From Deltaproteobacteria bacterium (GTDB lineage: Bacteria > Desulfobacterota > GWC2-55-46), in the NCBI GenBank assembly GCA_020846435.1, contig JADLDY010000018.1, positions 1 to 64,000 of the forward strand: a stretch of DNA of 64,000 nucleotides, given 5' to 3'. Below, in pieces: positions 92 to 29,859 of the stretch. Numbering within the stretch: position 1 is the first letter of the stretch; every line of letters starts with the position of its first letter. The notes under the pieces are model-generated. The model was not told the origin of the DNA, ran no database searches, and was given only the letters and a program-made list of their open reading frames with translations. Both the position numbers and the translations under genes were made by a program.

Positions 92-2755
92 ATGGCAAAG
101 GCTAAAAAGCCCGGCAAGAAACCTATTGAGCAGTATGAGCACAAGGGCAAAGAGCGGGTAAATAACCCCCATGTCGGGCTGGTGACGCCTGAAACCGACA
201 AGGACAGCGGGAGAAAGACCTATTCCTACGATCCGCACCTCGACCCGCAGTTGCAATGGGCCGGGAAAAAGGAACATACCTCATTTGAAGTCCCCACCGT
301 ATCTCTCCATGTCCATGAGCGCATAGACCCCCGGACGATAATGTACGCGGTAAAGAAGAAGAACGGCGGGCCGCAGTTGTCCCTTTTCGAGAGCAAGGAT
401 GAGAACCCGCCATTAAGGGAAGCAATCGACTTCTACAAGCACAGGCACAATTGGTCAAACCGCCTTATCGCAGGGGATTCGCTCCTTGTTATGAACTCAC
501 TCCTTGAGAAGGAGGGCATGGCCGGGCAGGTGCAGATGGTCTACATAGACCCGCCCTACGGCATAAAGTACGGCTCTAACTTTCAGCCGTTTGTAAACAA
601 GCGCGATGTGAAGGATGGCAAGGACGAGGATCTGACAGCCGAGCCGGAGATGATAAAGGCCTTCAGGGACACATGGGAGCTCGGGATACATTCTTATCTG
701 GCGTATCTAAGGGACAGGCTTTTACTCGCAAAGGAAATGCTTACTGAGAGCGGGAGCTGTTTCGTGCAGATTTCCGATGAGAATGTTCATCTTGTCAGGA
801 ATCTGATGGATGAGGTGTTTGGAAAGGATAATTTTATAGCTGAAGTAGTTTTTAGAAAAAAGGGGATGACTTTAGGCGCTGCCACATTAGAAAGAATGAA
901 CGACTTGATTGTTTGGTATTCAAAAGACAAAAGTAAAATAAAATATTTTCAATTGTACGAAGACTATAATGTTGAAGGAGCCTCAAGATGGACAATGGTA
1001 GAGGAAGTAGATGGTACACGACGTAAGCTTACTTCAGAAGAATGCATGAATCATAATTTGCTGCCTAAGGGTGCAAAAGTGTTCCGCCTGGTTTCTCAAA
1101 GAGCCCCTTCTTTTTCGCCAAGTAACGTTTTTGATTTTGAGTTCGAAGGGAAGGTTTATAAAGCACCTGGTTGTTGGGTCACAAATAAAATTGGCATGGA
1201 GAATCTTGCACGCCGCAAGAGATTTTATCCTGAGGGAGCAAATTTAAGTTATATACAGTATTCAAGTGATTTTCCCATGAAGAAATTAACCAATTTATGG
1301 ATGGATACTTCTGGAGCTGTTTCAAAAATATATGTCGTTCAAACTACTGAAAAAGCAATTCAACGCTGCCTGCTTATGACTACTCAACCAGGCGATATTG
1401 TCTTTGACCCTACATGCGGCTCTGGCACAACAGCCTTTGTAGCAGAGCAGTGGGGCCGGCGGTGGATTACCTGTGATACATCACGAGTAGCTACAAGCCT
1501 TGCCAAGCAACGGCTTATGACGGCCATGTTTGATTATTATGAGCTTGCACATTCTGATGAAGGCGTGGGAAGCGGCTTTAAATACAAGACGGTGCCGCAT
1601 ATAACACTTGGCTCAATCGCAAATAACGAACCTCCTGGACAAGAAACTCTTTACGACCAGCCTTTTATTGATAAGTCAAGGGCAAGGGTATCAGGCCCGT
1701 TTACCGTTGAGGCTGTTCCTGCGCCCGTGGTCAAACCAATTAATGAAATTGCTCCTCCTGCTCCTCAAGAGGGCAACTTTATGGAAGTTAAGTTTACTAC
1801 GAGTGGTGAAAGCCCAGACTTCGGAATATTTGAGGTTGGGGACATAAGAAAACTGCCTTATGAAACTGCAAGAGTGTTAATAACACGAAAAATAGTCGAA
1901 GATATATCGATGGCGCAAGAGGGGATTGTGGATGCGTCCGTTGCCAGAAGTGGCGAGACCCTCAGGCAGTCCGAATGGCGGGACGAGCTCCTTAAAACAG
2001 GCATAAGAGGCAAGGGCAAGCAGAGGATAGAATTCTCAAGGGTTGAGGCCCTGCCAGGCACGCGCTGGCTACACGCAGACGCCGAGACTAAGGAAGATAT
2101 CCCGCAGAGGGTTGTCTTGTCATTTGGCCCGGAGCACGCGCCCCTTGAGCAGAGGCATGTCGCCCTGGCTATAGAAGAAGCCCAAAAATTAGTCCCTAAG
2201 CCAAAGATCATCATCTTTGCCTCATTCCAGTTCGACCCGGAAGCGTCAAAGGATATAGACGAGCTTAATTGGCCCGGCGTGACGCTCCTCAAGGCGCAGA
2301 TGAACGCCGATCTCTTTACGGAAGACCTCAAGAAGAAGCGGGCAAGCAATGAGAGTTTCTGGCTTATCGGACAGCCTGAGATAAATGTCACGAAGGTTAA
2401 GACAGGCGAGGACAAAGGAAAGTGGAGGGTTGAAGTCCTTGGTTTTGATTATTACAATACCAAAGACGGCACAATTGAGTCAGGTGGGACTGAGAAGATC
2501 GCCATGTGGATGCTCGATATTGATTATGACGGCAGGAGCCTTTTTCCGAGACAGGTATTTTTCCCCATGTCGGGAGAGAAGGACGGCTGGAGTAGACTTG
2601 CAAAAAATCTCAAGGCGGAGATAGACGAAGAGTTAATTGAGGCTTACAGAGGGACAGTATCCCTTCCATTTGATGCTGGGGCAAATAAGAGGGTAGCCGT
2701 AAAGATAGTCGATGACAGGGGAATTGAGAGCTTGAAGATAATGGAGATCGAATAA
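92..2755 (+). CDS. mod: Type III restriction-modification methyltransferase subunit (Mod)
   Basis: This 887-residue protein is an S-adenosylmethionine-dependent DNA methyltransferase of the type III Mod kind, which recognises the target site and methylates adenine. The catalytic DPPY motif is at residues 153-156 and the cofactor-binding DPTCGSGTT motif at about 439-447. That order is the beta class used by Mod subunits. The target-recognition region lies between them, at about 245-435. It is more AT-rich than the flanking parts of the gene, which suggests exchange of the recognition domain. The C-terminal 350 residues hold no motif I recognise. The start is supported by AGAGG six bases upstream. 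The stop overlaps the next gene by one base. Confidence 0.93.
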
Positions 2756-3057
2756 TGGGAAAAGCGCATATAAACATACCAAAAGAAAAGATAGCCGAGT
2801 TCTGCCGTAGGAACCATATTCGCAAGCTGTCGCTTTTCGGTTCGGTATTGCGCGACGACTTCAATCCCGAAAGTGACGTGGACGTGCTTGTAGAATTTGA
2901 GGAAGGGCATGTGCCAGGGCTTATTACGCTCTCGGGCATGGAGATAGAGCTGAGCGGAATTTTCGGGCGCAAAGCCGACTTGAGGACTCCAGAAGACCTG
3001 AGCAGGTATTTCCGTAATGAGGTTGTTGAATCCGCTGAGGTACAGTATGCCGCGTAA
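2755..3057 (+). CDS. mntA: MNT-domain nucleotidyltransferase antitoxin (MntA-like)
   Basis: This 100-residue protein is a minimal nucleotidyltransferase. It has the Gly29-Ser30 signature, Asp41 and Asp43 in SDVD, and a third acidic residue at Asp75, which is the complete catalytic set. Proteins of this family paired with HEPN toxins act as antitoxins, and MntA is known to add AMP to HepT. The gene starts one base before the mod stop and overlaps the HEPN gene by 11 bases, so the two are translationally linked and lie inside the mod-res operon. Function is inferred from the family and the pairing. Confidence 0.87.
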
Positions 3058-3397
3058 AGATGATGTAATACGCCTGCGCCACATGCTTGAAGCCGCAAGA
3101 GCCGCCTGCGGTTATGTGGGGAACAAGGCCAAGGGAGATTTTTTTAAAGATAACCAGTGCCGGGATGCAGTTGTGAGGTGCATTGAGGTTATAGGCGAAG
3201 CCGCCGCAAGATTATCTCAAGAATGCCAGACCGAATTCCCACAGATACCGTGGAAGAATATAATAAGCATGAGAAACAGGTTGATACACGCCTATTACGA
3301 TATCAATCTTGATACCGTATGGAGCACCGTTACGGAAGATCTGCCGCCTCTTATCGGTTCTCTGGAAAAGATCCTCAAATCTGGAGATGATAAGTGA
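3047..3397 (+). CDS. hepT: HEPN-domain toxin (HepT-like, DUF86)
   Basis: The protein has 116 residues from the ATG at 3047, an alpha-helical DUF86/HEPN protein. It carries the R-x4-H-x-Y ribonuclease motif at Arg76-His81-Tyr83 (RNRLIHAY). HepT toxins cleave RNA and are neutralised by their MNT partner, which is encoded just upstream with an 11-base overlap. A start 30 bases further upstream is possible but would lengthen the overlap. The end overlaps the GTG of res in a GTGA junction. Position between mod and res suggests the pair is co-transcribed with the restriction system and may stabilise it or act as a second layer of abortive defence (inference). Confidence 0.87.
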
Positions 3398-6177
3398 GTT
3401 CAGCCACCATAGATAAACTCATTATCAATTCCCCTTATGAAGAGCCTGCCAGTTATTGGAGTTATGACAGGACGGCCCGTACCTTTAGCCTCAAGGAGGG
3501 CAGACGCCCGGCTGGTTATGTTGTAGCCTCAGAAAGCTCCAAGTCATTCGATGATCCCGGTATTTTCATTGAGATACCCATTGTCAATTTAATAAGGCCT
3601 CGCGTTAATGCCTGGCGGAAGGCCGGTTATTCTGGCGTAAGCGGTATAACCAGACGTCTTCTTGAGCATTGGAATAATATTGAAGAGCGAGAATACCGCC
3701 GTTTTTTCTTCTGCCAACTTGAGGCCATAGAAACCCTGATATGGCTTGCCGAAGCCCCGGATTCAGAGAAGGTAGGGATAGATATACCGTCAGACGGCGG
3801 GGAGTTCAGTCGTATATGCTCGAAGATGGCTACCGGCTCAGGCAAGACCATCGTAATGGCCCTCCTTATAGCATGGCAGGTGCTTAACAAGATCACTTAT
3901 CCACAGGACACTCGTTTTTCCAAGAATATATTTATTGTGGCCCCTGGGCTGACCGTCAAGAACCGCCTCCAGGTGCTCCTCCCTCATGGACACGGGAATT
4001 ATTACGAAGAGTTCAATGTTGTCCCTTCAGGGCTTCTGGATAAGCTCCGTCAGGGGAAAGTCCTCATCCATAACTGGCACACCCTTAGCTGGGATACTGA
4101 GGAGCGGATAGCGAAAAGGAAAGGCGTTGATAAAAGGGGCGCGAAGAGCAATGAGGCTTATGTAAGAGAAGTTTTGGAAGAGATGGCAAGCGCGCATAAT
4201 TTAATTGTCATAAACGACGAGGCGCACCATGCGTGGCGTATCCCTGCCGAGTCAAAGGTCAAGGGACTGAAAAAAGAGGATATAGAAGAGGCCACTGTCT
4301 GGATAAATGGGCTGGACAGGATACATAAAGCCAGAGGGATACTTTACTGCTTCGATTTTTCTGCGACGCCTTTTGCGCCTTCTGGAAAGAAAAGCTCTGA
4401 AGAAGCCCTTTTTAGCTGGATAGTAAGCGATTTTGGATTGAACGACGCCATAGAATCAGGGCTTGTAAAGACTCCGCGTGTTGTAGTCCGCGACGACGGG
4501 AAACTTACAAAGGACTATAAATCCCGCCTTTATCATATTTACAACGATCCTGAAGTTAAGGACGACCTCAACAGGAAGGCAGAGGAGCATGAGCCTCTGC
4601 CTGATCTTGTCATAAATGGATATTACCTTTTGGGCAAGGACTGGCTGGAGACAGCCAAGGCATGGGAGAAGCAGGGGCACAAGGTCCCGCCGGTAATGAT
4701 AACCGTTGCCAACAGGACAGAAACGGCGGCGCGCGTCAAATATGTCATTGACCATAAAAAGATAAGGATAGACGAGCTCTGCGAACCTGAAAAGACGCTC
4801 CATATAGATTCCAAAGTCCTTGATATGGCCGAGGCCCAGGAAGAGGCTGTAGTTAAAGAAGAGGCCGCAGCCCAGGAGGAAGAGGGGCAGGAAGAGCCTG
4901 TAAAGAAATTATCCAAGAAGCAGCAGGCCGAGCTTCTGAGGCAGACCGTAGATACCGTAGGCCAGGTAGGAAAGCCCGGCGAGCAGATTCAGAAGGTTAT
5001 CTCCGTCGGCATGCTGTCCGAGGGATGGGACGCCAAGACCGTAACCCATATCATGGGGCTACGCGCCTTCTCAAGCCAGTTGCTCTGCGAACAAGTTGTA
5101 GGCAGAGGGCTTAGAAGGACATCGTATGAGGTAAACCCTGAAACAGGATTATTTGAATCTGAGTATGTAAACATCTTCGGAGTACCGTTCACCTTCCTGC
5201 CACATGAGGCACAGGATGGGCCACCACCACCACCGCCGCCACCTAAGACCAAGATAGAGCCCGTAATTGATAAGCAACAGTATGAGATCAGCTGGGCTAA
5301 TATCATACGCATTGACCATGTATACAAGCCGACCCTGAAGCTTGAAATGAGCAAGGTTAAGCCTATTGAGATTGACGCCTACAACACGGCTACGTTTGCT
5401 GAACTTGCCCCGATAATAGGGGGGAAGCCCGATATTACGAAGATTGAAGCGATTGACCTTGAGGACCTGGGGCGTAAATACAGGACGCAAAAGATTATCT
5501 TCGAGACCGCAAGGGATGTGTACGACCAGATGAAACCCTCATGGAAGGGGAATAAGGAGTATCTGCTTGCGCAGTTGATTCGCTTGATAGAGGACTTTAT
5601 GAAGTCCGACAAGATTCAGATTGTGCCGCCCCTGCTTAATCAGGACGAGGCTAAACGGCGGATACTTATAACCTTGAACATGCAGAAGCTTGTCCAGCAT
5701 ATATGGGAGGCAATACGGTTTGAGAATACAGAAGCAATAGCCCCTGTATTTGATACTGACAATCCGATCCGTTCGACTGCCAACATGCAGACCTGGTACA
5801 CAGGTAAGCCGTGCGAATTTACCAAGAAGTCGCACATAAACCATTGTGTCTTTGACAGTACATGGGAGGCGTCGGAGGCCTTCGAGCTTGACCGTAACCA
5901 CAATGTTGAGTCATGGGTAAAAAACGATCACCTCGGTTTTGAGGTACTTTATATATTCAAGGGCGTCGTCAGAAAATACAGGCCGGATTTTATAATCAAA
6001 CTGAAGTCCGGAGATTTCCTGATCCTTGAAACCAAAGGGCAGGATACTCAGCAGGACAAAACAAAACGGGAATTCCTTGATGAATGGGTCAAAGCCGTAA
6101 ATCAACACGGCGGATTTGGGAAGTGGAAATGGGCGGTGTCGAAGAACCCAGCGGATGTTAGGGGAATAGTTGGTTAG
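3394..6177 (+). CDS. res: Type III restriction enzyme Res subunit (helicase-endonuclease)
   Basis: This 927-residue protein is the ATP-driven translocase and nuclease of the type III system. Visible motifs are Walker A ATGSGKT at residues 146-152, DEAH at 275-278, an SAT motif III (FSATPF) and a C-terminal PD-(D/E)xK nuclease site with Asp865, Glu879 and Lys881. Two low-complexity inserts stand out: a Glu/Ala/Lys-rich stretch at about 474-515 and eight consecutive prolines at 610-617. It starts with GTG overlapping the hepT stop by four bases. All catalytic motifs are intact, so the enzyme is probably active with Mod. Confidence 0.93.
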   Translation: MSSATIDKLIINSPYEEPASYWSYDRTARTFSLKEGRRPAGYVVASESSKSFDDPGIFIEIPIVNLIRPRVNAWRKAGYSGVSGITRRLLEHWNNIEEREYRRFFFCQLEAIETLIWLAEAPDSEKVGIDIPSDGGEFSRICSKMATGSGKTIVMALLIAWQVLNKITYPQDTRFSKNIFIVAPGLTVKNRLQVLLPHGHGNYYEEFNVVPSGLLDKLRQGKVLIHNWHTLSWDTEERIAKRKGVDKRGAKSNEAYVREVLEEMASAHNLIVINDEAHHAWRIPAESKVKGLKKEDIEEATVWINGLDRIHKARGILYCFDFSATPFAPSGKKSSEEALFSWIVSDFGLNDAIESGLVKTPRVVVRDDGKLTKDYKSRLYHIYNDPEVKDDLNRKAEEHEPLPDLVINGYYLLGKDWLETAKAWEKQGHKVPPVMITVANRTETAARVKYVIDHKKIRIDELCEPEKTLHIDSKVLDMAEAQEEAVVKEEAAAQEEEGQEEPVKKLSKKQQAELLRQTVDTVGQVGKPGEQIQKVISVGMLSEGWDAKTVTHIMGLRAFSSQLLCEQVVGRGLRRTSYEVNPETGLFESEYVNIFGVPFTFLPHEAQDGPPPPPPPPKTKIEPVIDKQQYEISWANIIRIDHVYKPTLKLEMSKVKPIEIDAYNTATFAELAPIIGGKPDITKIEAIDLEDLGRKYRTQKIIFETARDVYDQMKPSWKGNKEYLLAQLIRLIEDFMKSDKIQIVPPLLNQDEAKRRILITLNMQKLVQHIWEAIRFENTEAIAPVFDTDNPIRSTANMQTWYTGKPCEFTKKSHINHCVFDSTWEASEAFELDRNHNVESWVKNDHLGFEVLYIFKGVVRKYRPDFIIKLKSGDFLILETKGQDTQQDKTKREFLDEWVKAVNQHGGFGKWKWAVSKNPADVRGIVG

Positions 6178-6278
6178 ACGGAAATTGACTGATTAATTAG
6201 CGATGTATCAATTTGAGAACGACGCGTTTGGCGGCCCCATAACTCTTTGAACGATTTAACGCCAGAGGAATATCGTAA

Positions 6279-8066
6279 GTGACTTATATGTTACCTATAA
6301 ACAAATCAATATTTAATGTCGATTGTCTATCTCTTCTCGAGCGCTTACCGGAAGAATCTATCAAGCTAGTCTACCTTGATCCCCCATGGCCAACGGCAAT
6401 TGAATTTAACAATGATGAGGGAGAAAAATCATACTTCGACTTTATTGGCAAAATTCTGCAGCAATCAAGAAGAGTTCTTCTTGACTCAGGATTTGTCTTC
6501 TTGCATTGGTCGCCTGATTTACTTGTTGATATTAAGTTGATCTTCAATCAAATATTTGGAGAGGATGCTTGCATTGCAGAGATTATCTTAAAAAAACACC
6601 GCAATTTTATACCCCATTCTTCGGTGACAACAAGGCACGAGTCAATTTTAATTTATGGAAAAAGTAAGGCTGCAAAACTAAATAAGATTTTTTTACCTTT
6701 GTCCGAAGAAGAAAAAAAGAAATATGCTCTGTCAGATGGAAACAGAAAATATATGTTCAAAATGCTTACTTGTCCCAATAAAGGGCGGTCTACTTTTATA
6801 TGGAGAGGCTATCAATTACCTGCAGACAGCCAATGGATATATTCCGAGCAGAGGCTTGATGAGCTTGACCGTCAGGCAAGAGTCTTTTATCCAGAGGATG
6901 GATCCTTGCCAAGATTAAAGGTTTTTTTGGATGAACAAGTCGGCATGCAACTTGGTACTGTATGGGATGACATTCCTTGCCGTACTTTATTAAAAGAACG
7001 TGACAATTATTGTAAGCAACAACAGCCAATTGAACTTTTGGAGAGGATTATTGATCTTTCAACAATTCCAGGTGATTATATTTTAGACCCATTTATGGGT
7101 GCCGGTACTACTATATTTGTAGCCGAATCAAAAGGGAGAAATTGGATAGGCAGCGATGATTCAAGCGTTGCGTTTGAGATAACGAAGGCAAAAATAACAA
7201 AACTAACTAAGTCAGAATTTAGATGTTATACAGAGGAAGATCTCAGTCTTTTTCCATTTAGAAATTATTTTTATAAAAAGATTGTCGCTAGTGTAGATGA
7301 AATAAACTCTATAGTAAAAAAATTAAATAATCTATATTTATCGTTCGATGATTTAAAAAATAAAATGAATATTAAAGAGGACGACGAAGATGCAATAATT
7401 AAATCAATGAATGATTGGATTGATGTAGCGTTACGCAGAAAGGATGAAATAATTGGTTATGACGAATACGTGTCTTTAGCTAAGGAATGGGTAGTAAATT
7501 GGGCTCTATTGGAAGAGGAGAGCAAAGAGTTTCTTCCTTCTGCTGAGTTTTTGTTTAAGGATATCCAAAGTAGGAAATGCGTAGATTTTTCTCCTGCTAT
7601 TCTTCAATATTGTAAGACTTTAGAAAATGAGATACTTAAGAAGTTATTTGAGGCTTATCATACCTATATATATTCATATTCAGGGAAAATTTCAGTAAAT
7701 ATAGGGCAACTAATTGGAGACGATTTAACAATTTCAGAAACGCGCGAATTTGCAAAAAAAATACAAAAGGACGACTCAAAATACACCTTGGGGCAGATGG
7801 CTTTTATTTTGCAGTTGCTTAAGTCTGATGGAAATAATCTGAAGCAAAGTAGACTTCTTCAAGATTTTCGAAATTTTGTTTTAAAATATTTTGAAAAGAA
7901 AATTGTTGAGAAGCAATACCTTGAGAAAATTGAGGAAATTAATAAGGAATTCAGAAAGAAATCTGCCCATCCATATATTTTGGATTTAGAACAAGCTCAA
8001 AAGTGCCGACAAATGGTAAAAGAGTGTATGAATGATTTGATCCTTAACTATAAGGTTAATTTATGA
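6279..8066 (+). CDS. Second beta-class DNA methyltransferase with an unknown C-terminal domain
   Basis: The 595-residue protein has a DPPW catalytic motif at residues 34-37 and DPFMGAGTT at about 270-278, giving the beta-class order of N4/N6 methyltransferases. The methyltransferase part ends near residue 300; the remaining 295 residues are AT-rich in DNA, predicted mostly helical, and not recognised. GTG at 6279 has AGAGGA nine bases upstream; the ATG three codons later has poorer spacing. No cognate nuclease follows, so it may be an orphan or may belong to a system disrupted on its right side. It is separated from res by about 100 bases. Confidence 0.85.
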   Translation: MTYMLPINKSIFNVDCLSLLERLPEESIKLVYLDPPWPTAIEFNNDEGEKSYFDFIGKILQQSRRVLLDSGFVFLHWSPDLLVDIKLIFNQIFGEDACIAEIILKKHRNFIPHSSVTTRHESILIYGKSKAAKLNKIFLPLSEEEKKKYALSDGNRKYMFKMLTCPNKGRSTFIWRGYQLPADSQWIYSEQRLDELDRQARVFYPEDGSLPRLKVFLDEQVGMQLGTVWDDIPCRTLLKERDNYCKQQQPIELLERIIDLSTIPGDYILDPFMGAGTTIFVAESKGRNWIGSDDSSVAFEITKAKITKLTKSEFRCYTEEDLSLFPFRNYFYKKIVASVDEINSIVKKLNNLYLSFDDLKNKMNIKEDDEDAIIKSMNDWIDVALRRKDEIIGYDEYVSLAKEWVVNWALLEEESKEFLPSAEFLFKDIQSRKCVDFSPAILQYCKTLENEILKKLFEAYHTYIYSYSGKISVNIGQLIGDDLTISETREFAKKIQKDDSKYTLGQMAFILQLLKSDGNNLKQSRLLQDFRNFVLKYFEKKIVEKQYLEKIEEINKEFRKKSAHPYILDLEQAQKCRQMVKECMNDLILNYKVNL

Positions 8067-22584: not shown

Positions 22585-22698
22585 ATGAAGAATGCAGCCG
22601 CTTACATAATCGCCCTCGTCCTGTTCGGGGCCTTTTTCCTCCTGATGGACGTGTTTTTTTTCAACAGCCAGGGCCTTTCATTCCTTTACAGGGGCTGA
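22585..22698 (+). CDS. 37-residue membrane protein, candidate small subunit of the bd-like oxidase
   Basis: The frame encodes 37 residues with one hydrophobic helix (about residues 5-20), then MDVFFFNSQGLSF. Its stop is four bases before the GTG of the bd-type subunit, so it is almost certainly on the same transcript. Cytochrome bd oxidases of other bacteria carry short single-helix subunits (CydX, CydS), and this peptide has the right size, position and topology. It has no clear sequence match to either. Function is inferred from context only. Confidence 0.6.
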   Translation: MKNAAAYIIALVLFGAFFLLMDVFFFNSQGLSFLYRG

Positions 22699-22702
22699 CC
22701 CG

Positions 22703-24475
22703 GTGGAGCACAGGCTTAACAGGATATTGCCGTTGGCGGCTCTCGCCGCCATCCCGCTGCTTCTTATCCTCCCTCATATTTTTTCAGAATGCCACGCGCT
22801 TGCGGCCGAAGCGGCAAAGTTCGCTCCCGCCCCGGTCCTCTCATCCGGCGACTACCCGAAGGCAGGCGGGGTCAACCCGAGGCTTTTCGTATGGATGGCC
22901 GCGCAGATGCACCTGTGGTTCGCGGCCTTTGTTTTGGCCGTGCCTATTTTCGTCCTGCTACTCGAAGTCGTTGGAGTAATAAAAAAAGACAGCCGCTACG
23001 ACAAGGTCGCCTATGAGTTCCTGAGGGTCTCCCTCACGGCCTACTCTATAACCGCCATTACGGGCGGCGTTCTCCTTCTTGGCCTCGTCGTCTTTTATCC
23101 GGACCTCATGAAGTACCTCTCAGCCATATTCGGCTCGACCATGCTTTTTTACGCTCTTTTTTTCTTTGTCGAGTCAGCGGCTCTCTATGTCTACTATTAC
23201 GGCTGGAAGGCGATGCCTTCGGGAGGCCTCAAGTGGGCGCACATCGGGGTCGGCCTTTTGCTCAACGCCTCAGGCACGACCCTCATGTTCATAGCTAACG
23301 CTTGGGTCACATTCATGATGACTCCGGCCGGGGTCGATATTGCCGGGGTCTTTGACGGGAATGTCTGGCACGCGGTAAGAAACCACCTCTGGGGCCCCAT
23401 GAACCTCCACAGGTTCATCGCCAACATAGCCTACGGCGGCTCTATTGTCGCGGCTTACGCGGCCTACAGGTTCCTCGGCGTAAAAGACAGGGCTGAGAAG
23501 GCGCACTACGACTGGATGGGATATACCGCGAACCTGGTTGCCATAGGCGCTCTCCTTCCTCTGCCGTTCGCCGGGTACTGGCTTACAGCCGAGATATACG
23601 CCTACAGCCAGCAGATGGGCATAACCCTCATGGGCGGCCTTTTCGCCTGGCTTTTCATAATACAGGCGGTGATCATAGGGGCGCTCTTTCTGGCGGCCAA
23701 CTATTACCTCTGGTGCGGGCTCGGCAGGGGCGTGAACGGCGAGCGCTATTACAAATATGTGAAGTACATCGCCTTTGTCATCGCGGCTGCCTTCCTCGTC
23801 TGGTTCACGCCTCACACTCTAGTCCTTACGCCTGAAGAGGCCGCGGCCCTCGGCGGCCAGTACCACCCGCTGCTGGGCCCGCTGGGGCTCATGCCAGCCA
23901 AGAACACTGCGGTCAACATAATGCTGCTCTTCACATTCCTCTCGTTCCTTCTTTACAGGAGAGCCCACAGGACTCCGACGGTCAAGTGGGCGTCCAAAGG
24001 CAACGCTGTTGAGGCCGCGCTCTTTACCGCCGCTATAGTCAACATCGTCTGGCTCGGCGTCTATTACGGGTATTTTACCAACAGCGTCTACAAGGTCGCC
24101 TCTTCCGTACCGCAGGTCGCCACGACACTTTTCGTCATCGTCGCCTGCCTTGTTATGGAATACTTCATGCACAGGAAGGCCGAAATCTCAGAGCTCAGGT
24201 GGGGTGTCGTGCCTGACAGGAGCCAGTACGCGCTTTTCCTGATAGCGGTATCGTTCACCTGGCTCATGGGCCTCATGGGTTTTGTCCGCTCGGCCATAAG
24301 GCAGCACTGGCATGTCTATTCGGTAATGCGAGATAACTCGCCTGACGCCTTCACGCCGACGATCGCTTACGCGGCCAAGGTCGTCTCTATCGGCACCATA
24401 ATATTCATGGCGATGATCGCCTTCATATTCTGGCTGAGCCATATGGGTCAGGTAAAAGGGGCAGGGGATGAATAA
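22703..24475 (+). CDS. Cytochrome bd oxidase subunit I-like integral membrane protein
   Basis: This 590-residue protein with many membrane helices resembles CydA. A histidine in helix I (AAQMHLWFAAFVLAVP) matches the haem b595 ligand, ES in a later helix (FFVESAALY) matches the conserved glutamate, NAWVTFMMTP follows, and a histidine in NLHRFIANIAYGG matches a haem b558 ligand. It is about 70-140 residues longer than CydA. There is no CydB in the window; three cytochrome c genes follow in overlapping frames. Such bd-like proteins may move electrons between quinol and cytochrome c, or reduce oxygen. GTG start; stop overlaps the next gene by eight bases. Confidence 0.8.
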   Translation: MEHRLNRILPLAALAAIPLLLILPHIFSECHALAAEAAKFAPAPVLSSGDYPKAGGVNPRLFVWMAAQMHLWFAAFVLAVPIFVLLLEVVGVIKKDSRYDKVAYEFLRVSLTAYSITAITGGVLLLGLVVFYPDLMKYLSAIFGSTMLFYALFFFVESAALYVYYYGWKAMPSGGLKWAHIGVGLLLNASGTTLMFIANAWVTFMMTPAGVDIAGVFDGNVWHAVRNHLWGPMNLHRFIANIAYGGSIVAAYAAYRFLGVKDRAEKAHYDWMGYTANLVAIGALLPLPFAGYWLTAEIYAYSQQMGITLMGGLFAWLFIIQAVIIGALFLAANYYLWCGLGRGVNGERYYKYVKYIAFVIAAAFLVWFTPHTLVLTPEEAAALGGQYHPLLGPLGLMPAKNTAVNIMLLFTFLSFLLYRRAHRTPTVKWASKGNAVEAALFTAAIVNIVWLGVYYGYFTNSVYKVASSVPQVATTLFVIVACLVMEYFMHRKAEISELRWGVVPDRSQYALFLIAVSFTWLMGLMGFVRSAIRQHWHVYSVMRDNSPDAFTPTIAYAAKVVSIGTIIFMAMIAFIFWLSHMGQVKGAGDE

Positions 24476-25001
24476 CTTCCTGAAAGTTGCGCTATTCAGT
24501 CTTTTCATAATCGGCGTGTATACCGTTTATTCGGTCATGATCATCCCTCCCATAACGCCGGAGGAGCCGCCAAAGGAAGAGGCCGCGGCTATGCCTGTGA
24601 CGGTCGATGAGTTAGTCGCCCTTGGCGAGCAGGTCTACAACGGCAAGGGCGCCTGCGCCCTGTGCCACAGCCCGGTCGCTGGAAGGGCGCCACTTTTGGA
24701 GAAAGCCGCGGCAGTGGCCGAAGCCCGTTTAAGGGAGAAGGGCTACAATGGCAAGGCAACTGATGCCGAGGAGTACCTCTACGAATCGCTGGTAGCCCCG
24801 TCGGCCTTTGTCGTCCCTGGCTTTGGGGCCTCAGGCACGAACGACACGATAAGCCCGATGCCTGGCGTCAAGGACCCTGCAATCGGTTTGAGCGAGACGG
24901 AGATAAAGGCCGTCATAGCCTATCTCCAGCAGATAGCGGGAGTTGAGGTCACGGTCAAGCTCGACGGGGGAAACGCGATTCAGGAGGCTTCAGGCAGATG
25001 A
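24468..25001 (+). CDS. Membrane-anchored monohaem cytochrome c
   Basis: The 177-residue protein has an N-terminal membrane helix (about residues 5-24) that anchors a periplasmic domain with one haem c site, CALCH at 63-67. It is preceded by a Pro/Glu-rich linker. Methionines in the later PMPG segment could be the sixth ligand. It overlaps the bd-like gene by eight bases and the next cytochrome by four. It probably takes electrons to or from the bd-like subunit. Confidence 0.87.
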   Translation: MNNFLKVALFSLFIIGVYTVYSVMIIPPITPEEPPKEEAAAMPVTVDELVALGEQVYNGKGACALCHSPVAGRAPLLEKAAAVAEARLREKGYNGKATDAEEYLYESLVAPSAFVVPGFGASGTNDTISPMPGVKDPAIGLSETEIKAVIAYLQQIAGVEVTVKLDGGNAIQEASGR

Positions 25002-25744
25002 GGCTTTTAAAGTTTGTCCTCACATGCCTCTTCTTTTATCTGCTCCTTAAGGCGCCGGGTCTTTTTCTCGGCAAGCCTGTCCCGTCGAGCCTCATCGCGA
25101 TGTACATGTTCTTCATCGTCATAACCGTGCTGCTGGTCATGACGATAACCGATGACGGAGCTGAAAAGCTTTTCGCGCCTATACGCTCTCTCGTTGAAGA
25201 CCCCTCTAAAAAACTTATAAGGAATGTCGTCTTCGTTGTCGTGCCAATAGTCTGCGGTTACGCGGTCTATGACAGCGGCGAAAAAAAGGCCCCGCCAACG
25301 GAGTTGCGGGCCGTGCATCCGGCCCCTCCGGCAATAGTTAAGGCGTATGGAAAGACTTTTGACCTCGCGAGCATTGGGAACCCGTTCAGGAAGGCCGAAA
25401 AAGAAGACCCTGCGGCTTTCAAGGCTTTTGTAAAAGAGGGCTCTGAGGTCTACTTCAAAAACTGCTTTTTCTGCCACGGCGACAAGCTCGACGGCAAAGG
25501 CCACTACGCTCACGCCCTTGAGCTGAGGCCGCTGCCCTTCACAGGGACAGATACCATAGCCCAGCTGCAGGAGTCATATCTCTTCTGGAGGATATTGAAG
25601 GGCGGACCGGGCCTGCCGAGGGAAGGCGGGCCTTCGATATCGGCGATGCCGGCGTGGGAAAACGAGCTTACAGAGGACGAGATATGGAAGGTCATACTCT
25701 TCCTCTACGATTATACCGGTAATACTCCGAGGTCATGGAGCTGA
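24998..25744 (+). CDS. Membrane-bound monohaem cytochrome c
   Basis: The 248-residue product has three hydrophobic segments in the first 90 residues and a C-terminal cytochrome c domain with one CFFCH site at about residue 157, followed by GDKLDGKGHYA, typical of cytochrome c class I. Its C-terminus (SAMPAWENELTEDEIWKVILFLY) shows the methionine-ligand region of cytochrome c family domains. It begins in an ATGA overlap with the preceding gene. Confidence 0.87.
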   Translation: MRLLKFVLTCLFFYLLLKAPGLFLGKPVPSSLIAMYMFFIVITVLLVMTITDDGAEKLFAPIRSLVEDPSKKLIRNVVFVVVPIVCGYAVYDSGEKKAPPTELRAVHPAPPAIVKAYGKTFDLASIGNPFRKAEKEDPAAFKAFVKEGSEVYFKNCFFCHGDKLDGKGHYAHALELRPLPFTGTDTIAQLQESYLFWRILKGGPGLPREGGPSISAMPAWENELTEDEIWKVILFLYDYTGNTPRSWS

Positions 25745-25745
25745 T

Positions 25746-27272
25746 ATGGGGATGAGGCTTTTGACCCTCTTTGCCTTGCTGTTTTGTTTCTCGAATGATG
25801 TCTTTGCCCAGACAGAGATCGACAAGGGTAAAGCCATATATTCACGCTTGTGCGCCTTCTGCCACGGCATTGAAGGCGCGGGAGACGGCCCGGCGGCCGC
25901 CTACCTTAACCCTCCTCCAAGGGACTTTACCCTCGGCCTTTACAAATGGAAGTCAACAAAGTTTGACGAGTACGCGCCGTCTGACGATGACCTCGCGAGG
26001 ATGATATCCGGCATGCGCTCACATGATTCCATCCCCGGCTGGGACGGCATGAACGCTACCTCCATGCCCGGCTGGTCTGATCTGCTCGGCAAGGAGGAGG
26101 TCTCTCATGTCGCGGCTTATCTCAAATCGCTCGCAGGTTATGATAATGCCCCGAAAAGCGCGATAGACCTCTCAGGAAAGGTCAAGGCTGACAGCGCGAG
26201 CGTTGAGCGCGGCAAGACCCTCTTCAAGGACAGGTGCGCGGAGTGCCACGGCGTCTCTGGCAGGGGGGACGCCACTAAAAAACTGAAAGACGACTGGGGG
26301 GCGCGTACCTGGCCGAGAGACCTGACCGAGGGCTGGACCTTCAGGGCAGGCTCCGCGCCTGAGGACATCTACGCGAGAATAACAATCGGCATACCCGGCA
26401 CGCAGATGCCGAGTTTCGCTGACCCGGCTTCCAAAAAAATGATGACAGACGCCCAGAGGTGGGATGTCGCGAACTACGCGGTCTCATTGAACGAGTCGGA
26501 AAAAAAGCCGTCCGCAAACCCGGTACTCAAAGCGATGAAGCTTGATGGCAAGCTGCCTGACGGCCCGGCTGACGCCAAGTGGGACAAGGCCGCCATATCA
26601 GGCTTTTATCTTTTCCCGCAGATATTCGTTTCTTCAAAAAGTTATACCCCTTCCGTTGTCTCGGTTTCAGTAAAGGCTTTGTATAACGACGGCGAGGCCG
26701 CCTTTCTCATCGAATGGGACGACCCTACGAATTCAATGCCCTGGGACCAGAAAGCCTTAGAGATAGCCGACGGCGATCTTTTCCCCGACTCCGTTGCTGT
26801 ACAGTTCCCGTCCGGACAGCTCAAGCCAGGAGACAGGCCGTACTTCGGCATGGGAGGCCCAAAGCCCGTTACCATATGGCAATGGAAAGGGCCGGAGTCG
26901 ATCGAGGAAGGCCAGAGAGCGCGAATCATCGACGCGAAGGGCGTAAAAAATATAAACCAGCGCCTTGCTGACGGCCTCCTCACGGCCAACGGCATCTATG
27001 ACAACGGCAGATGGCGCGTCGTAATAAAAGGGCCGCTCAAGGGCTCTGATAAAGACCCGGTATTCGAAGAAGGCGGCTTCACTCCTGTCGCGTTTGCCCT
27101 GTGGGACGGCTCGAACGGCGATACCGGCGGCAGGCACCTCATGACGGGCTGGCAGTGGATGACCTTCGAAAAACAGGGCGAAGGCCCCTCCTACCTCTGG
27201 CCCGTCGCGGCTGGAGTCATTGTCTTTTGCGGCGAGATGTTGTGGCTGTTTAGCGCCAGAAAAAAAGATTAA
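25746..27272 (+). CDS. Dihaem cytochrome c fused to an ethylbenzene dehydrogenase-type haem domain
   Basis: The 508-residue protein has a signal peptide, two cytochrome c domains (CAFCH near residue 37 and CAECH near residue 163), and then a region from about 265 to 480 that resembles the haem-binding subunit domain of ethylbenzene and dimethylsulfide dehydrogenases (VSVKALYNDGEAAFLIEWDD). A single C-terminal helix (WPVAAGVIVFCGEMLWLF) anchors it. It would be a periplasmic electron carrier with two c haems and perhaps a b haem. The last four bases overlap a convergent gene. There is no molybdoenzyme partner nearby. Confidence 0.83.
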   Translation: MGMRLLTLFALLFCFSNDVFAQTEIDKGKAIYSRLCAFCHGIEGAGDGPAAAYLNPPPRDFTLGLYKWKSTKFDEYAPSDDDLARMISGMRSHDSIPGWDGMNATSMPGWSDLLGKEEVSHVAAYLKSLAGYDNAPKSAIDLSGKVKADSASVERGKTLFKDRCAECHGVSGRGDATKKLKDDWGARTWPRDLTEGWTFRAGSAPEDIYARITIGIPGTQMPSFADPASKKMMTDAQRWDVANYAVSLNESEKKPSANPVLKAMKLDGKLPDGPADAKWDKAAISGFYLFPQIFVSSKSYTPSVVSVSVKALYNDGEAAFLIEWDDPTNSMPWDQKALEIADGDLFPDSVAVQFPSGQLKPGDRPYFGMGGPKPVTIWQWKGPESIEEGQRARIIDAKGVKNINQRLADGLLTANGIYDNGRWRVVIKGPLKGSDKDPVFEEGGFTPVAFALWDGSNGDTGGRHLMTGWQWMTFEKQGEGPSYLWPVAAGVIVFCGEMLWLFSARKKD

Positions 27273-27451: not shown

Positions 27452-28669
27452 TTAATTGCCCGCCTTTTGCCTGAGCTCTGCCATGAGTTCAGGCGTTATC
27501 AATTCAATGCCTTTTGAAGCGGCGTACCTCTCCAGCCCTTTTTTAATCATGGGGCGCAAAAACGGGGGGATCTTCTCAAGGCGCGCTTGCGCTTCAGTGC
27601 TCCATGTTGGGGCGGTTTGCTTCGGCGTCTCTCTTTTTTCATTCTCTTCGGGCTCGTAAGCGCACAGGGGGTCTTCTTCCATGAGGTTCCCTTTTGAGGC
27701 GAGCGCCCTTGCCCTGCAGCCTCCGCACGAGTCTTTGTAGCCGCATTCAGCGCATCTGCCTGTGAGGACGCTCTCTCTCAGGCTTGAGAAGGACGGGGCT
27801 TGCTCCCATATGTCTTTCAAAGAGGTTTTGAGGACGCTTGGCGAATCGGAGTTCGCCGGTATGTACGGGCAGGCCGTCACGAACCCTTCGGGGGAGATCC
27901 TGAGATAGCTTTTTGCGGCAATGCAGCCTGCTGTCGCGCCCCTGACGAGCGGACTTTTGGGGTTCAGTTTTTCTGCTACCCGCACTATGTGAGGCGCGCA
28001 CCTTGCCCGCACCAGTATTTGTCCGCTGAATTTTTCTTCCGCTTTTACTATCTCTTCGAGAACGGTTTCATACTCCTGCGGGGTAAGGTCGGAAGCCTTC
28101 TGCCCCCTTCCTGTGCATACGAGGAAGAAGAAGTTGATTGAGAGCGCGCCTCGTTCAATGGCTAACGCGACAGCTCTGTCTATCTCGCCTCTGTTTTCCT
28201 TTGTGACCGTGAACTGCAGCTGGAACGGTATGGAGGCTCTACGGAGAGCCTCTATACCGGCGATGGTCTTTTCCCACGCGCCTTCCATCCCCCTGAATTT
28301 GTCGTGAAACGGCGGCGTGATTGAGTCGAGGCTGACTCCAGCGCCTTTTATTCCGGCATGAAGGAGTCGCGAGCATACTTCGTCGTTTAGCATCGTTCCG
28401 TTCGTTCCGATGACAGGGTTGAGCCCGAGGTTCGTGGCGCAGCTTATGATGTCGAATATGTCAGGCCTCAGGAGAGGCTCTCCGCCTGTGAGTACGAGCA
28501 TGGCCCCTGTAGCGAAAGAGGCTATTCTTTCGGTTACGGCAAGGGCTTCTCTGGCAGAGGTGGCGTCAACGCCCGTGAGCTCCGTGGCGTCAAGGTAGCA
28601 GTGGCCGCAGGCGAGGTTGCATTGGTTGGTTAAGTTCCATGAGATGAGGTATGGGGGCTGTAAACTCAC
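27452..28669 (-). CDS. Radical SAM/SPASM protein with a C-terminal PCP_red-type domain
   Basis: The 405-residue enzyme has the radical SAM CNLACGHC motif near residues 17-24, a GGEPLLRP glycine-rich block, and SPASM-type cysteines in the last third (GCIAAK, CPYIP, CAEC and CGGC). It resembles the NirJ/AhbC/AhbD group that modifies haem precursors. The last 52 residues (from about 354) match the small domain known from the light-independent protochlorophyllide reductase subunit, and nearly the same domain ends the next gene upstream. Substrate is unknown; a link to haem made for the neighbouring cytochromes is inference. Confidence 0.85.
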   Translation of the reverse strand: MSLQPPYLISWNLTNQCNLACGHCYLDATELTGVDATSAREALAVTERIASFATGAMLVLTGGEPLLRPDIFDIISCATNLGLNPVIGTNGTMLNDEVCSRLLHAGIKGAGVSLDSITPPFHDKFRGMEGAWEKTIAGIEALRRASIPFQLQFTVTKENRGEIDRAVALAIERGALSINFFFLVCTGRGQKASDLTPQEYETVLEEIVKAEEKFSGQILVRARCAPHIVRVAEKLNPKSPLVRGATAGCIAAKSYLRISPEGFVTACPYIPANSDSPSVLKTSLKDIWEQAPSFSSLRESVLTGRCAECGYKDSCGGCRARALASKGNLMEEDPLCAYEPEENEKRETPKQTAPTWSTEAQARLEKIPPFLRPMIKKGLERYAASKGIELITPELMAELRQKAGN

Positions 28670-29859
28670 TTGCCCTCCATGCGTTTCCTGACCTCACGCA
28701 TGAAAGACGCGCTGACAATAGGGATGCCCTTTTGACGCGCGCTGTCCTCGACCATGTTCCTGACGATTGTTCGTGCGAACTTCGGTATGCGCTCGAGTAT
28801 CGCTTTTGCCTCGTCAGTCCAGTCGATGGCAGAAGGGTCAGAAGGGGCATGAGCGTTCTCCGGGATAAACTCGCCGGAAGATATGAGGACATGGCAGGAA
28901 AGCTCCCTCATGCAGTTCTCGGCCGTGGAGCCGATGTCGAGCATGGGCGTTGCCTGCATGCCGGTCCTGCCGAAGACAACCATGAAGGCTGAAATTTTTT
29001 CAGCGTACTTGATTATCTCGTCTGAGGCCTTGCCTGAAAGGAGCGTCGTTTTTATCATCGCGCCGCTTGAGGACGCGACTGCCGCGGCGGTATCGAGATG
29101 GCCTTTGTATATCCTCGCGAGCCCCTTGTCAATTATCTCTTCGTGGAGCTTTTCCTGCTCGTTGAACCTGAAGAGGCGGCCCGCCTCTTCGGTGAGCACG
29201 CCTGCTATGGAACGGAAGGCCGACTGGTGGAAGATTGGGTCAAAGGCCGCGATAGCCTCGATGGGTCTGTTGAATACTTTCGATAATCCGATGGCGGTCT
29301 TGAGGCCGGCGAATGAGGCGGGGCTTCCGTCTATGGCCGTGAGTATGGGGCCCTCGTTGTCAGTCGTGCCGGCTATGAGGACATCCTGTTTGGCTCTCCT
29401 CGCGACCCGTTCGGCGACGCTCCCTATGGAGCTCGTCGGGACGATTCCGAGGCCGAGCCTCCCGAGGGAGACGAGGTCGCAGCCCTGTTCATCGGCTTCG
29501 GCCAGTATCTCTTCGAAGTTCCTTCCTTCGCGGCTCACGCAAACAGGCTCAACGCCCGCGGAGGCGGCTCTGGCGTGAAAAACAGCGGTGTAAGAGTCGG
29601 ATATTATCCTGAGCCCTTTTGTTATGAGAGTGTCGTGGACTTCTCTGGTGTTTTTCAGCTCTTCTTCTTTTTGGTATTCCGGCGGCAGTCCGTCCTCCAT
29701 CTCGATGAACCTGGCGTTGTGGAGGCGCGCGGCGTAGACATGGCAGCCGATAAGGCGCGCTCTTGTAGCCGAGGCAATCGTCACCGAGAGAGCGGCCGCT
29801 GAGTTGGAATGGTCTGAATTGTCGAGGCAGACCAGAAGGCGCTTGTACATGAGGGGCAT
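28666..29859 (-). CDS. Tandem universal stress protein with a C-terminal PCP_red-type domain
   Basis: The 397-residue protein has two UspA domains (about residues 5-150 and 155-315). The second has the ATP-type GRTGMQATPMLDIGSTAE motif and the first has the related GRLGLGIVPTSSIGS. The last 54 residues (from about 344) form the same small domain that ends the radical SAM protein, beginning WTDEAKAILERIPKF. The stop overlaps the radical SAM start by four bases, so the two are coupled. A combined role in a stress- or redox-linked haem function is possible but unproven. Confidence 0.87.
   Translation of the reverse strand: MPLMYKRLLVCLDNSDHSNSAAALSVTIASATRARLIGCHVYAARLHNARFIEMEDGLPPEYQKEEELKNTREVHDTLITKGLRIISDSYTAVFHARAASAGVEPVCVSREGRNFEEILAEADEQGCDLVSLGRLGLGIVPTSSIGSVAERVARRAKQDVLIAGTTDNEGPILTAIDGSPASFAGLKTAIGLSKVFNRPIEAIAAFDPIFHQSAFRSIAGVLTEEAGRLFRFNEQEKLHEEIIDKGLARIYKGHLDTAAAVASSSGAMIKTTLLSGKASDEIIKYAEKISAFMVVFGRTGMQATPMLDIGSTAENCMRELSCHVLISSGEFIPENAHAPSDPSAIDWTDEAKAILERIPKFARTIVRNMVEDSARQKGIPIVSASFMREVRKRMEGK

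Follow-up and report, generated by a model that had tools for sequence, protein, structure and literature searches.

We analyzed a 64,000-nucleotide stretch of a deltaproteobacterial genome (contig JADLDY010000018.1; the whole stretch is called the window) and found a five-gene set, here called the module, that encodes a protein derived from subunit I of cytochrome bd oxidases (CydA-like), three c-type cytochromes, and a small membrane peptide. The residues of the CydA-like protein suggest that its low-spin heme site is partly kept and that its oxygen site is damaged. Electron transfer between cytochromes and a second partner, possibly quinones, is a more likely role for this subunit than reduction of oxygen. 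We tentatively propose that the module specifies a complex that moves electrons between cytochrome c and quinone (or some other partner) on a disabled bd subunit and does not reduce oxygen, a reading we hold to be quite possible, if a little short of probable. New here are the loss of the equivalents of Glu445 and Glu99 of Escherichia coli CydA, the small peptide, and the occurrence of the module without a periplasmic nitrite oxidoreductase (NXR)-type enzyme, its host genome having genes of bc1-like, aa3-type, and NarGH kinds.

Five tightly packed genes encode the module

The five open reading frames (ORFs) lie on the + strand at 22585-27272:

22585..22698, +: small protein with a single transmembrane (TM) segment, 37 residues, MKNAAAYIIALVLFGAFFLLMDVFFFNSQGLSFLYRG; candidate new subunit with the motif D-x7-GL
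22703..24475, +: CydA-like protein, 590 residues, signal-like N terminus, bd subunit I fold (Pfam PF01654, 4.3e-21; AlphaFold2 model against 5doq_A, Z of 27.7)
24468..25001, +: cyc1, 177 residues, monoheme c-type cytochrome with an N-terminal membrane anchor (Cytochrom_C, 3.1e-4, barely above the curated cut-off)
24998..25744, +: cyc2, 248 residues, monoheme c-type cytochrome (Cytochrome_CBB3, 1e-9)
25746..27272, +: ccEB, 508 residues, signal peptide, two c-type heme domains, EB_dh heme b domain, and C-terminal TM anchor (Cytochrom_C, 5.5e-23; EB_dh, 2.1e-21)

The CydA-like gene overlaps cyc1 by 8 nucleotides, cyc1 overlaps cyc2 by 4, and cyc2 and ccEB abut with a 1-nucleotide gap. Cyc1 has a single CxxCH at 63 and a TM-like segment at 8-26, Cyc2 has a single CxxCH at 156 after about three N-terminal TM-like segments, and ccEB has two CxxCH motifs. 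An initial annotation of this DNA had described a bd-like subunit I and three overlapping or abutting c-type cytochrome genes, the last a fusion of two c-type domains with EB_dh. We confirmed all of these ORFs, their junctions, and the domains of the fusion. That annotation missed the first ORF, which is a conserved small membrane protein. Chance or misannotation of the gene set was ruled out by its motifs and by its gene order, which is shared by most genomes of the order to which this one belongs and recurs in several phyla.

The CydA-like protein keeps heme histidines and has lost residues of the oxygen site

By profile and predicted fold, the CydA-like protein is a member of the cytochrome bd superfamily; the model speaks to its fold, not its function. 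The match to Cyt_bd_oxida_I (75.4 bits; cut-off, 26.2) covers only profile positions 3-243 of 418, and the model aligned with 5doq_A over residues 55-583 (345 residues aligned; root mean square deviation, 3.7). The model also partly resembled ActC/ActF of alternative complex III (Z of 17.5 to 20.4). Structural matches ranked below these (Z of 8.4 and lower) were set aside as unspecific helical matches.

In the E. coli enzymes, His186 and Met393 bind heme b558, Glu445 binds heme b595, and His19, with Glu99 opposite, binds heme d (PMC8585947, PMC6853902). We counted residues in a 119-sequence alignment made up of 117 relatives and two references, E. coli CydA and the canonical CydA of genome G031, which belongs to the same order. 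His19 corresponds to H70 and His186 to H236, and at both positions all relatives with a residue in the column have His. The Glu107 equivalent is Glu or Asp among the relatives and is kept here as E157. The Glu99 equivalent is lost, with hydrophobic or aromatic residues in its place. At the Glu445 column the window protein has S530, and the relatives have Ser (110 of 117), Ala (4 of 117), or Glu (3 of 117). Because the equivalent of Glu445 is Ser530 and that of Glu99 is lost, O2 reduction is unlikely.

Glu is found at this column in two divergent relatives, at loci L058 and L059, each with an NrfD-type gene a few kilobases off on the same contig; loss of the Glu is therefore not general. At locus L049 (genome G043) the CydA-like protein is the sole short-type one of the set with Glu at this column. 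Apparent conservation of Lys252 as K354 is probably an alignment artifact; K354 sits in a predicted helix. Of the CydA residues mapped onto this protein, His19, His186, and Glu107 are kept, and Glu99, Glu445, and the Q-loop residue Glu257 have no counterpart. The heme histidines on which the initial annotation relied are present and conserved, and the protein does not lack all heme ligands in the alignment. The loss of two acidic residues from the canonical oxygen site (Glu99 and Glu445) had escaped that annotation.

The genome encodes a single CydA homologue and no CydB

We found no match to CydB (PF02322) in the genome of the window organism (2.4 Mb, rated 100% complete); the positive control for this search was positive in 10 of 14 reference genomes. 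CydB was also absent from 47 of the 48 genomes of the order, and G031, the sole genome that has it, gave no match to the CydA-like protein. A normal bd oxidase with its CydB encoded elsewhere was thus ruled out, and the lack of CydB noted initially extends to the whole genome, with no distant CydB to pair with this subunit. There is a single CydA homologue (PF01654), so no partner supplies an oxygen site.

The same genome has a bc1-like set (Rieske, cytochrome b, and cytochrome c genes; L171) with an NrfD gene nearby, CtaD/CoxB, a NorB/CcoN-like protein with a small c-type cytochrome gene (L158), NarGHJ, a NarI-like ORF, and NarK. Since the bc1-like set is present, the module was ruled out as the sole quinol:cytochrome c link of this organism. 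COX1-family genes matched in each of the order's 48 genomes (above the cut-off in 45). Where PF00033 is absent from other genomes of the order, NrfD-type genes are mostly present, and the only module-bearing genomes lacking both are G023 and G027 (under 90% complete). DsrA was above the cut-off in none of the 48 genomes, which ruled out a sulfate reducer.

The genome has three PF00384 matches, namely NuoG, inside the window, and the two contig-split pieces of one NarG, which has no evident signal sequence. This search revealed no periplasmic type II molybdoenzyme (NXR type), so ccEB has no evident partner of this kind here. Its presence here without NXR shows that the module is not confined to nitrite oxidation. 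The split narG spans the end of one contig (G000:C60; L156) and the start of another (G000:C31; L155), with a 42-residue overlap. A gene for a membrane-anchored monoheme cytochrome c lies directly upstream of it, and NarH, NarJ, the NarI-like ORF, and NarK lie downstream.

Relatives in the order and in other phyla share the gene order

The CydA-like query gave matches in 40 of the 48 genomes, 36 of them at ≥60% identity across the greater part of the protein. At the 35 loci of the order that we fetched (L022-L056), cyc1 is always next, and where the contig is long enough, nearly all loci also have cyc2 and ccEB after it. We kept the best 80 of at least 560 wider relatives, so that the true spread is wider, and among these 80 the same gene order occurs in Nitrospirae, Nitrospinae, and many Proteobacteria. 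They include "Deltaproteobacteria" groundwater metagenome-assembled genomes (GWA2_55_10, GWB2_55_19, GWC2_42_11, and others), Alpha- and Gammaproteobacteria (for example, Acidiferrobacteraceae, Arenicellales, and Thiodiazotropha), Gallionella, and Mariprofundus. Judged by record names, the hosts include lineages of sulfur, iron, and nitrite oxidizers. The initial annotation had called the complex uncommon. It is instead widespread, and the cluster type is already described in the published accounts that bear on it (PMC6606698, PMC3578206).

Many Proteobacteria have a tandem pair of modules, and in one of the pair the CydA-like protein is longer (about 710-750 residues). The 19 long proteins formed a separate clade (FastTree support, 1.0). 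The tandem order (L081, L089, L090, L092, L096, L098, L100, and others) is long CydA-like gene, two cytochrome c genes, ccEB, two extra cytochrome c genes, small peptide, and short module.

We found cyc2 and ccEB fused as a single protein of 748-813 residues with three CxxCH motifs at 16 loci, which supports a physical link between them. We counted these fusions and the fixed gene order in the order and in other phyla for the reading that the products form one complex.

A small membrane peptide marks the short-type module

Directly upstream of the CydA-like gene lies a peptide of about 35-60 residues in which D-x7-GL comes after a single hydrophobic helix. It was found at 79 of 88 distinct short-type modules (several phyla), at 0 of 18 long-type modules, and beside 1 of 659 control genes; the motif was picked once a looser search of these loci had been made, so that 79 of 88 is not an independent test and the information lies in the comparison with long-type modules and control genes. 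Two of the nine short-type modules without the peptide are the divergent L058 and L059. Pairwise pN/pS (nonsynonymous to synonymous differences) was 0.11-0.65. Five representatives matched no Pfam or NCBIfam family, CydX type included, at E values up to 1. The peptide resembles CydX-type proteins in operon position and is unrelated to CydX as far as Pfam and NCBIfam show. It is likely a subunit of the complex, and it should be useful as a marker of the module and, as a likely subunit, for purification.

ccEB joins a diheme cytochrome to an EB_dh domain

The diheme part of ccEB matched a small cytochrome chain, 6h5l_B, most closely (9.2e-51), and the EB_dh part was closest to NXR subunit C (7b04_C) and EbdC (2ivf_C). 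TIGR03477 scored 100 bits on ccEB, under its cut-off of 170 bits. The AlphaFold2 model of ccEB had a predicted local distance difference test score (pLDDT) of 68.7. The heme ligands of NXR-C are Met155 and Lys305 (PMC8387239). Met155 aligns exactly with M369 of ccEB, and Lys305 aligns with R463, which adjoins H464; the latter alignment is ambiguous by one residue. Met369/His464 is found in 63 of 88 short-type modules, and Arg369/Met464 in 20 of 20 long-type modules, so that the two types differ near the EB_dh heme too.

A second EB_dh protein (332 residues, one CxxCH) is encoded away from the module at G000:C1:34355-34960 (L162, L172), beside a 393-residue protein with one CxxCH.

A model for the module and its alternatives

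We propose that the five products assemble into a single membrane complex that faces the periplasm. Its bd-type subunit I would carry b hemes and would be steadied by the 37-residue peptide in place of CydB. Electrons may run, in either direction, between the low-spin heme (ligand H236) and the four c-type hemes of Cyc1, Cyc2, and ccEB plus the b heme of EB_dh. With the acidic ligand of one high-spin heme (Glu445) and Glu99 gone, O2 would not be reduced. Electrons would instead pass between a periplasmic donor of high potential, such as a soluble cytochrome c, and a partner in the membrane, for which the quinone pool is the likeliest candidate. We assume the quinone site and also the direction, which in lithotrophs would be uphill (reverse).

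The nearest described system is the bd-like_3/alt_nxrC_2 cluster of Nitrospira moscoviensis, a near-twin that also occurs in Nitrospina gracilis and "Ca. Kuenenia" (PMC6606698, PMC3578206); its published description (PMC6606698) gives the same clustered bd-like protein, c-type cytochromes, and diheme c plus EB_dh protein with a TM helix. There the cluster is found together with NXR in nitrite oxidizers and anammox bacteria, whereas here it occurs without NXR in another lineage. The passages describing it do not mention the small peptide or the neighbors reported below. Related Nitrospirae and Nitrospinae records matched at 58-65%; Nitrospira itself was not among the compared loci. For Nitrospira, reverse electron flow or an NXR anchor is proposed in the section on this cluster (PMC6606698). 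For the Nitrospina and anammox counterpart, the corresponding section suggests a quinone link like that of alternative complex III (ACIII), provided that a quinone site exists (PMC3578206).

One alternative is that the module is an oxygen reductase of the OR-N family within the cytochrome bd superfamily (Murali et al. 2021, as cited in PMC10839748 and PMC12342949), with cytochrome c instead of quinol as the donor and O2 reduced on two high-spin hemes of the CydA-like subunit. OR-N enzymes of Nitrospinota/Nitrospirales are described as likely cytochrome c-oxidizing O2 reductases, and the family, as far as those descriptions go, likewise has a CydA homologue without quinol-site residues, without CydB, and linked to cytochromes c (PMC10839748, PMC12342949). 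OR-N5 of Nitrospirales is placed beside ACIII in the relevant part of one report (PMC12342949), and L058/L059, near NrfD-type genes, resemble that. The window protein also has the bd fold, the equivalents of H19, H186, and E107, and three c-type cytochromes alongside. However, its Glu445 equivalent, kept in L058/L059, is Ser, and its Glu99 equivalent is lost. The proposed oxidase is, in the available descriptions of OR-N1/OR-N2, a CydAA′ pair, and this genome has one homologue. Anammox bacteria are strict anaerobes. The sections on the twin cluster report that it is kept in them (PMC3578206, PMC6606698). We counted this retention, and the other terminal oxidase genes of the window genome (CtaD/CoxB and NorB/CcoN-like), for a non-oxidase role, and we consider an OR-N-type reductase unlikely. 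E. coli CydAB-CydX is alike in the CydA fold, the H19, H186, and E107 equivalents, and a small single-TM protein in the operon; here CydB, the Q-loop Glu257, Glu99, and Glu445 are missing.

The module could also be a periplasmic hub or anchor for a lithotrophic dehydrogenase, in which the EB_dh heme b accepts electrons from a partner enzyme, the c hemes pass them to soluble cytochromes, and the CydA-like protein is a mere heme-bearing anchor. EB_dh domains are gamma subunits of dimethyl sulfoxide reductase type II enzymes, M369 aligns with a heme ligand of Kuenenia NXR-C (PMC8387239), and the passage on alt_NxrC_2 proposes an NXR anchor role (PMC6606698). ccEB shares the EB_dh domain and the Met ligand position with NXR subunit C and ethylbenzene dehydrogenase gamma, and it adds a diheme c domain and a C-terminal TM segment, with H464 beside the Lys305 position. 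Against this, none of the three PF00384 matches is a periplasmic type II molybdoenzyme, and the conserved b-heme histidines of the CydA-like part would be left without a clear role. We regard a hub or anchor as doubtful. Taken together, the lost residues, the small peptide, and the absence of NXR speak against an oxidase and a strict NXR anchor and in favor of a self-standing electron transfer complex with its own small subunit.

Several points weigh against the electron transfer complex that we prefer. No quinone-binding residue was identified in the CydA-like protein; a residue is absent at the Glu257 column in all 117 relatives, and the Met393 equivalent could not be placed in an alignment that is unreliable there. 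In the section on the Nitrospina counterpart, its authors report that the quinol-site residues are all lacking (PMC3578206). The C-terminal half of the CydA-like protein aligns poorly, its model has a mean pLDDT of 67.9, and conserved new histidines (H180, H371, H388, and H537) could provide other heme ligands. Given the bc1-like set here and the COX1-family matches throughout the order, the need for a further link is not obvious, and the window organism need not be a lithotroph. The exchange between the quinone pool and periplasmic cytochromes suggested initially thus stands in part: gene order, overlaps, and fusions tie a CydB-less bd subunit I to c-type hemes, and Glu257 has no counterpart.

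If the electron transfer complex is correct, it bears on how electrons from high-potential donors reach the quinone pool in nitrite, iron, and sulfur oxidizers, an open question for which a bd-like cluster of the same type has been proposed. Loss of the Glu445 ligand argues against listing the "bd-like oxidases" of this module among terminal oxidases when metagenomes are annotated. ACIII (ActC/ActF) is alike in a partly similar membrane fold, c-type cytochromes, and a possible quinone link; the module lacks an ActB-like iron-sulfur/molybdopterin-type protein, and the likeness rests on fold, not sequence.

Neighboring genes

Two genes on the opposite strand follow the module:

27452..28669, −: radical S-adenosylmethionine (SAM)/SPASM protein, NirJ2/AhbD-like, with a C-terminal PCP_red domain; adjoins the module in 40 of the 69 short-type loci whose flanks were long enough
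28666..29859, −: protein with a double universal-stress-protein (Usp) domain and a C-terminal PCP_red domain; adjoins the module in 43 of the same 69 loci

Such radical SAM and Usp neighbors, both ending in PCP_red, stand beside the module in distant phyla (46 of the 69 loci). The PCP_red domain is known from a protochlorophyllide reductase subunit. The neighbors are possibly dedicated to heme tailoring. A more specific version of our proposal, which we think improbable though worth stating, is that the module is an O2-independent, bd-derived cytochrome c:quinone oxidoreductase, a further solution beside bc1 and ACIII, with its own small subunit and a radical SAM heme-tailoring enzyme encoded next door.

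Tandem modules of Proteobacteria are often followed by Usp/PCP_red, radical SAM/PCP_red, and amine-oxidase-like flavoprotein genes. In nine gammaproteobacterial loci (L126-L141), a large HEAT-repeat protein (about 620-880 residues) adjoins the module upstream on the opposite strand. Elsewhere in the window, at 92-8066, a ResIII-type helicase gene lies between two N6/N4 DNA methylase genes, a probable restriction-modification locus.

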